Assembly: GCA_012719535.1 (NCBI GenBank)
Contig: JAAYAC010000068.1
Coordinates: 1 to 35,681 of the forward strand
Origin: Syntrophomonadaceae bacterium
GTDB lineage: Bacteria > Bacillota > Syntrophomonadia > Syntrophomonadales > Syntrophothermaceae
DNA length: 35,681 bases
Reading direction: 5' to 3'
Made by a program: the position numbers and the translations under genes. Under the pieces are notes generated by a model that saw only the letters and a program-made list of their open reading frames with translations, searched no databases and had not been told where the DNA came from. Below are positions 8,215 to 12,489 of this stretch, one piece after another (the first letter of the stretch is position 1; every line of letters starts with the position of its first letter).

Positions 8215-8229
8215 AAGTAGGATCTATCT

Positions 8230-8280
8230 GGGGTCTGGCAACGAGCCGCAGCGAAGCGGAGGCGAGCCGTGCCTGACCCC
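8230..8280. repeat. REP-like palindromic unit 1
   Basis: The 51-base unit has inverted ends GGGGTCTGGCA (8230-8240) and TGCCTGACCCC (8270-8280), which pair over 11 bases with one T-T mismatch. The core holds CGAGCCG twice (direct) and a small CCGC/GCGG hairpin. A 51-base stretch (8227-8277) recurs 78 bases downstream with one difference. This resembles bacterial REP elements mobilised by RAYT transposases, but no transposase gene lies in the window. Confidence 0.8.
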
Positions 8281-8304: not shown

Positions 8305-8355
8305 TCTGGGGTCTGGCAACGAGCCGCAGCGAAGCAGAGGCGAGCCGTGCCTGAC
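8305..8355. repeat. REP-like palindromic unit 2
   Basis: Second copy of the unit found at 8227-8277, in the same orientation and exactly 78 bases downstream, with a single G-to-A change visible in the core (GAAGCGG becomes GAAGCAG). Its right end is eroded: TGCCTGAC is followed by GCAA instead of CCC. The bases after each copy are also related (GCAACAAGTGAAAG and GCAACCAGTCGAAAG), so the duplicated unit was probably near 78 bases. It ends only 17 bases before the flhA ribosome-binding site. Confidence 0.8.
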
Positions 8356-8385: not shown

Positions 8386-10439
<2,054 letters not shown>

Positions 10440-10443
<4 letters not shown>

Positions 10444-10558
10444 AGATACGCCGTTTCATTGCGGATAACCTTCAGGAGGCAATCAGGCAGGCCAGAATCG
10501 AACTGGGGCAGGATGCCATTATTCTTCTCATACCCGTAAGTTCAAGCAGGGAGGGTTT
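10440..10558 (+). pseudogene. flhF: Displaced N-terminus of flhF (frameshifted)
   Basis: The ATG at 10440 overlaps the flhA stop (ATGA) and encodes MKIRRFIADNLQEAIRQARI followed by ELGQDAIIL, the conserved FlhF N-terminus. After codon 29 (CTT at 10524-10526) the frame is wrong: the expected continuation HTRKFKQGGFMGLFGKP is read from 10529 in another frame. The two frames differ by the CT at 10527-10528, so either two bases are extra or one is missing. The upstream frame then runs as nonsense to 10754. The site lies in a pyrimidine-rich stretch (ATTATTCTTCTCATACC), prone to slippage or sequencing error. If real, full-length FlhF is not made by normal decoding. Confidence 0.8.
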
Positions 10559-11593
10559 ATGGGCCTGTTCGGCAAACCCCGCGTGGAAATTACGGTGGCT
10601 CTGGACGAGGTCCCCCGGGTTGTTGAGACCGGGTTGGTGCCCCCTGAGGTCCTGTCAGCCCCACCGGCTGCTGCTTCTCAGGGTGAAGCCCCGGCCGATA
10701 GCGATGGGCAAGCGGATCTCCTCTATGAACTCAAAACCGTCAAGGAACTGGTAACCCAGCTGAATGAAAAGATCGGAGAACGTGACAAGCTAAAAGGCCT
10801 GCCACGCAGCACCCAGGCTATGTACAAGAGACTGCTCAGAAACAATGTCGATGAAAAGCTGGCCCTGCGCCTGGTTCGGTCGGTTGGAGAACAACTGGAA
10901 AGTGAAAACACCCGGGACCAGGAAAGGTGTCGGGAGCTGTTTATTCAGGGTATTGAAAACCTGATAAGAAAACCCCGGCCCATAGAGTTTAACAAGAATA
11001 AACCCCGGGTGGTAGCCATGGTGGGGCCCACCGGGGTAGGTAAGACCACTACCATTGCCAAATTGGCTGCCAATTTTACGCTGTTGGAGAAGAAACAGGT
11101 AGGTCTTATTACCATTGACACTTACCGTATTGCCGCGGTGGAACAACTCAAGACCTATGCGGAGATTATCGGGATTCCCCTGGAGGTCGTGTTTCGACCG
11201 GAAGGGTTGATGCCGGCCCTTGATAAATTCCGCCACAAAGACCTAATTTTCATTGATACTGCTGGTAGAAGCCCCAAGAATGAGCCACAAATATCAGAAT
11301 TAGCTGAATTCCTGAAGGCAGCCCGTCCGGACGAAATCATGCTGGTCTTGAGTACCAACACCCATACGGCGGATCTCCTGGATATCTATCGCCGTTTCAA
11401 CGTAGTGCGAATAGATAAACTGGTATTTACCAAGCTGGACGAAAGCAACACCTGGGGACAGATACTCAACACGGTCCACAAAACAAGGACCAGCCTGGCT
11501 TACATAACCAACGGTCAAAATGTCCCGGACGATATTGAAGTACCTGACCCCTTTTATCTGGCCAAAACCATACTGGGAGAGGATGTCGGCTGA
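10559..11593 (+). CDS. flhF: Flagellar biosynthesis GTPase FlhF (body after the frameshift)
   Basis: SRP-type GTPase that sets flagellar position and number, working with FlhG. This part (344 residues) holds everything except the first ~40 residues of the FlhF N-terminus. It contains the N and G domains with P-loop GPTGVGKT (156-163), then TIDTYRIAAVEQLKTYAEII, the G3 motif IDTAGRSPKN, G4 TKLDES and closing motif GQNVPDDI. ATG at 10559 follows AGGGAGGG with a short 3-4 base spacer, so this fragment could start by itself, giving an N-terminally shortened but GTPase-competent protein. The codons before 10559 in the same frame (HTRKFKQGGF) are clearly FlhF, so the ancestral start was 10440. It overlaps flhG by one base. 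Confidence 0.88.
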   Translation: MGLFGKPRVEITVALDEVPRVVETGLVPPEVLSAPPAAASQGEAPADSDGQADLLYELKTVKELVTQLNEKIGERDKLKGLPRSTQAMYKRLLRNNVDEKLALRLVRSVGEQLESENTRDQERCRELFIQGIENLIRKPRPIEFNKNKPRVVAMVGPTGVGKTTTIAKLAANFTLLEKKQVGLITIDTYRIAAVEQLKTYAEIIGIPLEVVFRPEGLMPALDKFRHKDLIFIDTAGRSPKNEPQISELAEFLKAARPDEIMLVLSTNTHTADLLDIYRRFNVVRIDKLVFTKLDESNTWGQILNTVHKTRTSLAYITNGQNVPDDIEVPDPFYLAKTILGEDVG

Positions 11594-12489
11594 TGAAGGA
11601 CCAGGCAGAAAGACTCAGGTTAATGGCCAAAAACTTGAAGACCAGGATCGAGAACGACATGGTCAAGGGAATGAACCACACCCGGGTAATTGTGGTAACC
11701 AGCGGTAAGGGGGGGGTAGGGAAAACTAACCTGGCCTTGAACCTGTCCCTGGCCATGGCGGAGAATGGGATTCGGACCATTCTTCTTGACGCCGACATGG
11801 GTCTGGCCAATGTGGACATCATCCTGGGGGTGGTGCCGAAGTACAACCTGTACCACGTTGTTCTGGGGGAGAAAACCATCAAGGAAATTGTGATAAAGGG
11901 CCCCTATGACTTGAAAATAATACCGGGTGGTTCCGGCATACAGGAACTGGCCAACTTGCCCGAAGAGACCCTAAAGCGAGTCATCAGTGAGCTGGAACGC
12001 CTGGATGGTGAGTGCGACCTTATGATCATTGACACTGGTGCCGGTATATCGAATAGTGTCGTCAGTTTCCTGCTGGCAGGAGATGACATCATTGTGGTCA
12101 CCACGCCAGAGCCGACCTCCATCACCGACGCGTACGGGATAATCAAGGCGGCCTCCAGCCGGCGGGCGAGGGGACTGATCTACATAGTAGTCAACCGGGT
12201 GAGTATGGAGACCGAAGGTATCCTGGTAGCCCAGAAACTGGTTAGCGTTGCCGAAAAGTTTCTGGGAGTTGAAGTAAGGCCACTGGGGCATATGGTGGAA
12301 GACCCGGCGATTGAGCGCGCGGTTAAAAACCAGGAGCCCTTTTTACTGGCCTATCCCAATAGCCAGGCCGCTAACAATATCAGGGCCATTGCCCGTAAAA
12401 TATGCGAGGTCTGTTTCGAAGAAAAGACGGCGCCCAGGGCTTCAGGTCTCAGGTCATTTTTCCGCAATTTGACCAGTTTTATGCGCTAG
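11593..12489 (+). CDS. flhG: Flagellar number regulator FlhG (MinD/ParA-like ATPase, YlxH)
   Basis: MinD-family ATPase of 298 residues that stimulates FlhF GTPase activity and limits flagellar number. The N-terminus (MKDQAERLRLMAKNL) resembles the FlhG activator helix (DQAxxLR) that contacts FlhF. The deviant Walker A SGKGGVGKT spans residues 37-45, the switch/Walker regions include LLDADMGLANVDIILG and MIIDTGAGIS, and a C-terminal basic-hydrophobic helix (LRSFFRNLTSFM) could be the membrane-targeting sequence. The ATG at 11593 shares one base with the flhF stop (TGATG). Pairing with flhF separates it from the cell-division MinD. Confidence 0.94.
   Translation: MKDQAERLRLMAKNLKTRIENDMVKGMNHTRVIVVTSGKGGVGKTNLALNLSLAMAENGIRTILLDADMGLANVDIILGVVPKYNLYHVVLGEKTIKEIVIKGPYDLKIIPGGSGIQELANLPEETLKRVISELERLDGECDLMIIDTGAGISNSVVSFLLAGDDIIVVTTPEPTSITDAYGIIKAASSRRARGLIYIVVNRVSMETEGILVAQKLVSVAEKFLGVEVRPLGHMVEDPAIERAVKNQEPFLLAYPNSQAANNIRAIARKICEVCFEEKTAPRASGLRSFFRNLTSFMR

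Follow-up and report, generated by a model that had tools for sequence, protein, structure and literature searches.

The reading frame of flhF in this genome is broken near its 5' end, and the locus raises the question of what kind of event broke it. The earlier note offered a sequencing error, a recent mutation, phase-variable slippage changing flagellation, and recoding. Recent mutation or sequencing error fits every test reported below, whereas the other two are not supported. The split is best explained as a singleton 2-nt insertion, the most probable cause being a recent mutation with loss or change of function (probability roughly 0.6). This would be an ordinary event, and nothing in the data supports a new kind of switch.

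The stretch of DNA that was analyzed, 35,681 nucleotides long and called here the window, belongs to a draft genome of 2.49 Mb. The complete genome of a relative, G003, served as reference for tblastn searches and synteny. The features at the locus are as follows.

8401..10443, plus strand: flhA, intact; full-length match to TIGR01398; 77% identical to G003 over 98% of its length
10440..10526, plus strand: flhF 5' part, the first 29 codons of the FliG-interacting domain (FID), comprising strand 1, the helix and the start of strand 2
10527..10528, plus strand: two extra nucleotides, CT, within CTTCTC, placed by DNA comparison with six relatives from the family and order
10529..11593, plus strand: flhF body frame, open, with the rest of the FID, the linker and the NG GTPase domain
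10553..10559, plus strand: candidate -1 slippery heptamer G_GGU_UUA, from a script scan; slippage there would move the 10440 frame into that of the body at 10559
10559..11593, plus strand: possible restart ORF of 344 aa, lacking residues 1-39
11593..12489, plus strand: flhG/ylxH, intact; 75% identical to G003 over 100% of its length

Direct reading of positions 10440-10600 shows that a 2-nt offset interrupts the flhF frame after codon 29, leaving two contiguous FlhF pieces. The first frame starts with an ATG at 10440 that overlaps the flhA stop codon (ATGA), and its 29 codons (10440-10526) read MKIRRFIADNLQEAIRQARIELGQDAIIL. Beyond them this frame departs from FlhF sequence and terminates at 10754, 104 aa in all. 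The second frame (10529-11593) begins HTRKFKQGGFMGLFGKP and extends across the GTPase body, which is of the SRP type. In the NCBIfam FlhF model TIGR03499, positions 1-29 are matched by residues 1-29 of the first frame (E = 6.8e-6) and positions 30-286 by the second frame (E = 2.4e-58). No model position is missing or duplicated across the seam, and the full model is spanned only by the two frames together, by neither protein alone, although the body frame scores 198 bits against a cut-off of 174. The position of the split given in the earlier note is thus confirmed. So is its assignment of the offset to the CT at 10527-10528: a tblastn search with G003 FlhF aligned residues 1-29 and 30-383 with no gap in the query and two bases in the subject between the halves. 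Over the 5' part, identity to the corresponding residues of G003 FlhF is 69%.

In most respects the two pieces resemble the FlhF family. The body matches Pfam SRP54 (PF00448, E = 1.4e-43) and, as in the family, the NG domain retains its G motifs intact (P-loop GPTGVGKTTT, DTAGRS and TKLDE). The order flhA-flhF-flhG is that of other bacteria, and so is the DQAxxLR motif at the N terminus of the translated flhG/ylxH product (MKDQAERLR), a motif by which FlhG activates FlhF (PMC11236974). Unlike in the family, however, the break lies within the FliG-interacting domain, which is not encoded in frame with the NG domain.

FlhF homologs were collected from the order (63 genomes, with an FlhF match in 45) and from 80 GTDB loci. 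The genus is represented by this genome only and the family by three others, with 57-66% identity in FlhF; a search labeled as class-wide yielded genomes of the same order only. None of the order-level matches in the 45 genomes contains a stop codon. The comparison with relatives that the earlier note had asked for gave a clear result: in 87 distinct FlhF N termini the junction is open in a single frame, the typical residues there being D-A-[VI]-I-[LI]-[HNS]-[TS]-[RK]-K. Besides the copy studied here, the only broken flhF among those found is that of Clostridium senegalense JC122 (locus L114, 5912-6060; NZ_HE611050.1). Its frame is broken near the same codons but at a run of eight A residues, a typical error or slippage site, and the break is a separate, independent event. 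At the A8 run, transcriptional slippage is one possibility and a homopolymer sequencing error another. Because the relatives read through the junction and the sole other broken copy is separate, the split is a singleton. Within the genome there is no second flhF able to compensate, the other two matches resembling the paralogs Ffh and FtsY. An exact-match scan of viral contigs and a megablast search of plasmids revealed no second copy of the locus.

The break also appears to be young. In a maximum-likelihood tree the terminal branch of the FlhF body is 0.29, the shortest in the family (the others are 0.48, 0.53 and 0.69), which indicates a young break. Until recently, if not to this day, normal constraint has acted on the body. 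Such an undecayed, constrained body does not agree with an old pseudogene; it is what one would see with a young mutation, an error, or continued expression from an internal start. The frame is broken, the remainder is conserved and the relatives are intact, as expected of a young singleton pseudogene. The locus shows no evident difference from the 'singleton' class and young pseudogenes described with GeneTack (PMC3711429), sharing with them a single occurrence, a joined protein supported by BLAST and by the family, and the lack of both a conserved frameshift site and a repeat tract.

The neighborhood of the gene is in good order. The flagellar and chemotaxis cluster is cut at flgE: contig C99, which carries fliF, fliG and their neighbors, ends just before flgE (at locus L130), the window starts within this gene (1-1223), and synteny with G003 makes the two adjoin. 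The gene order follows that of G003 from the fliF-fliG surroundings to the che genes and sigma factor and on to rpsB and beyond (contigs C99 and C50). Nearly all compared genes of this stretch are in a single frame with 82-100% coverage, the exceptions being one divergent C99 protein that aligned in its C-terminal third only and one gene cut by a contig end. Intact copies of fliG and of two flagellin-type genes are present. Between flhB and flhA there is a 51-bp direct repeat (8227-8277 and 8305-8355; 98% identical, 78 bp apart). It belongs to a dispersed, pairwise repeat family, because contigs C32, C145 and C143 of the genome also carry related copies, in pairs and with 80-89% identity.

A recent mutation or a consensus error fits these observations, since the split is unshared, the neighbors are intact and the body is undecayed. 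The strongest competitor of a real mutation is that the organism's flhF is intact and that the two extra bases are an artifact of the draft, a reading that we consider a good deal less probable, although it has to be taken seriously. The assembly is a draft in 203 contigs. A fully conserved body and the integrity of all other compared flagellar genes are also what an unbroken gene would give. Furthermore, the GeneTack authors regard sequencing errors, and not genuine indels, as the expected cause of singleton frameshifts with BLAST support (PMC3711429). The indel background of this genome is low, however. A comparison of 0.57 Mb of it with the proteins of 1.6 Mb of G003 covered 296 genes (85,464 aligned residues), of which only two contained genuine frameshifts: flhF and a gene in visible decay. 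Frameshifts are thus not widespread in the assembly. Moreover, the change is a dinucleotide duplication and not a homopolymer miscount, and homopolymers of 7-8 bases in the window left their genes unbroken.

The decayed gene (L129, 17070-17380; about 37,070-37,380 of C99, minus strand) is frameshifted, near 37,100, and truncated, is similar to a 235-aa protein of G003, and adjoins what looks like an Hsp20-type gene. Two other frameshift candidates were discarded: C99:16147-16541 is read in antisense and spans what looks like a gene boundary, and L134:17242-17512 is a T-box leader.

What the break does to the protein can be judged from the structure of the FID, which comprises the first ~44 residues of FlhF and has been solved for FlhF of Shewanella putrefaciens (PDB 9en1; PMC11236974). 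The profile of the relatives' FlhF N termini matches 9en1. An AlphaFold model of the N terminus of one relative (L041; pLDDT 88) consists of a strand (residues 2-8), a helix (11-22) and two further strands (27-36 and 45-54), and was matched to 9en1 by Foldseek with a probability of 1.00. According to this model, the break after residue 29 would fall inside the second strand, and a restart at ATG 10559, which is residue 40, would begin in the loop before the third.

Such a restart had been proposed in the earlier note, and its elements are present: ATG 10559 is in the body frame and GGAGG (10550-10554) precedes it, although the loss would be 39 residues and not about 40. No ATG, GTG or TTG that could start a longer product lies upstream in the body frame. 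An NG-only FlhF without FID is thus possible on paper. That this form works, and perhaps has been selected, is improbable. The GGAGG in front of the start, the intact GTPase motifs together with the activator motif of FlhG, and the absence of relaxed evolution in the body would all agree with it. The GGAGG is, however, a by-product of conserved GGF codons, and its spacing of only 4 nt is short. The position of ATG 10559 is occupied by F, L or I in most relatives, and the start is therefore not a conserved design. In S. putrefaciens the FID is required for function, and FlhF without residues 1-44 behaves like the null mutant, although it continues to reach the pole (PMC11236974). The predicted restart product likewise lacks the FID, but the Shewanella variant was engineered in a polar-flagellate gammaproteobacterium with HubP and has lost 44 residues instead of 39.

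Recoding fares worse. The script scan found no slippery heptamer at the junction itself and two -1 heptamers in the frame overlap, G_GGU_UUA at 10553-10559 and A_AAC_CCC at 10574. Programmed or adventitious -1 frameshifting at the former would give a nearly full-length FlhF in which 10 native residues are swapped for 11 foreign ones. The heptamer is canonical, lies in the right frame, and would let ribosomes leave the 10440 frame for that of the body at precisely 10559. From their in-frame rate in the window, however, 0.5-0.7 such heptamers are expected by chance in the 94-codon overlap. No stimulating structure is seen in the downstream RNA, which is slightly less structured than shuffled sequence (z = +1.26), and the Shine-Dalgarno-like GGGAGG overlaps the heptamer instead of preceding it. 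U_UUA tetramers shift poorly in E. coli, only slightly above background (PMC4066793). Finally, no frame transition is conserved, since the 87 distinct relatives are open through the junction. Recoding could operate here only as an accident, and we regard it as highly unlikely.

Phase variation, in which slippage at the pyrimidine run would switch flhF as a contingency locus, is equally hard to sustain. The extra bases do lie in a short repeat, CTTCTC, and flagellar genes are known targets of phase variation (PMC3711429). But this repeat is a minimal one, with two dinucleotide units, of which the window contains 1148 examples; runs of four or more units are absent from the window, and the frameshift does not lie in a simple-sequence repeat tract. 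In a DNA alignment, six relatives lack the repeat at the junction. A one-off slippage duplication of CT is plausible, whereas a dedicated phase-variable tract is not. A deliberate split, in which an NG-only FlhF from the internal start and an occasional FID-containing form from -1 slippage would set flagellar placement by their ratio, is scarcely credible.

The preferred reading, a recent insertion, implies the following course of events. Slippage of the replicating strand would recently have duplicated the CT in tandem within CTTCTC, adding 2 nt at codon 30. Translation from 10440 would then yield a product of 104 aa, of which only 29 residues are FlhF, and restart at ATG 10559 may give some NG-only FlhF at low efficiency. 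The FID would be lost either way, and with it the ability of FlhF to connect the nascent C-ring with its site. Flagella would probably still be built but misplaced, as judged from the phenotype of the flhF deletion in B. subtilis (PMC12153297).

The analysis had a wider by-product: at the profile level the FID resembles Jag_N, a domain of KhpB/EloR/Jag. This is a lead and not a result. Pfam Jag_N weakly matches 12 of 54 FlhF N termini (window 10440-10603, FlhF residues 1-54; best E = 0.0069). In hhalign, FlhF N termini and Jag_N domains from the same family (loci L122-L127) were paired with a probability of 92% (E = 5e-7 for the pair). The alignment is colinear over 50 columns and includes a glycine-rich GxxG motif, which in both domains forms a loop before the last strand. 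Foldseek matched the Jag structure 3gku weakly (E = 0.42). No paper naming both FlhF and Jag was found in the literature searched.

As a genomic feature the split of flhF is ordinary. If the mutation is real, the organism would be a natural variant in which the flagellar genes are intact and FlhF lacks its FID. It would then test the need for the FID in flagellar placement outside the gammaproteobacteria, in an anaerobe of the Bacillota type.
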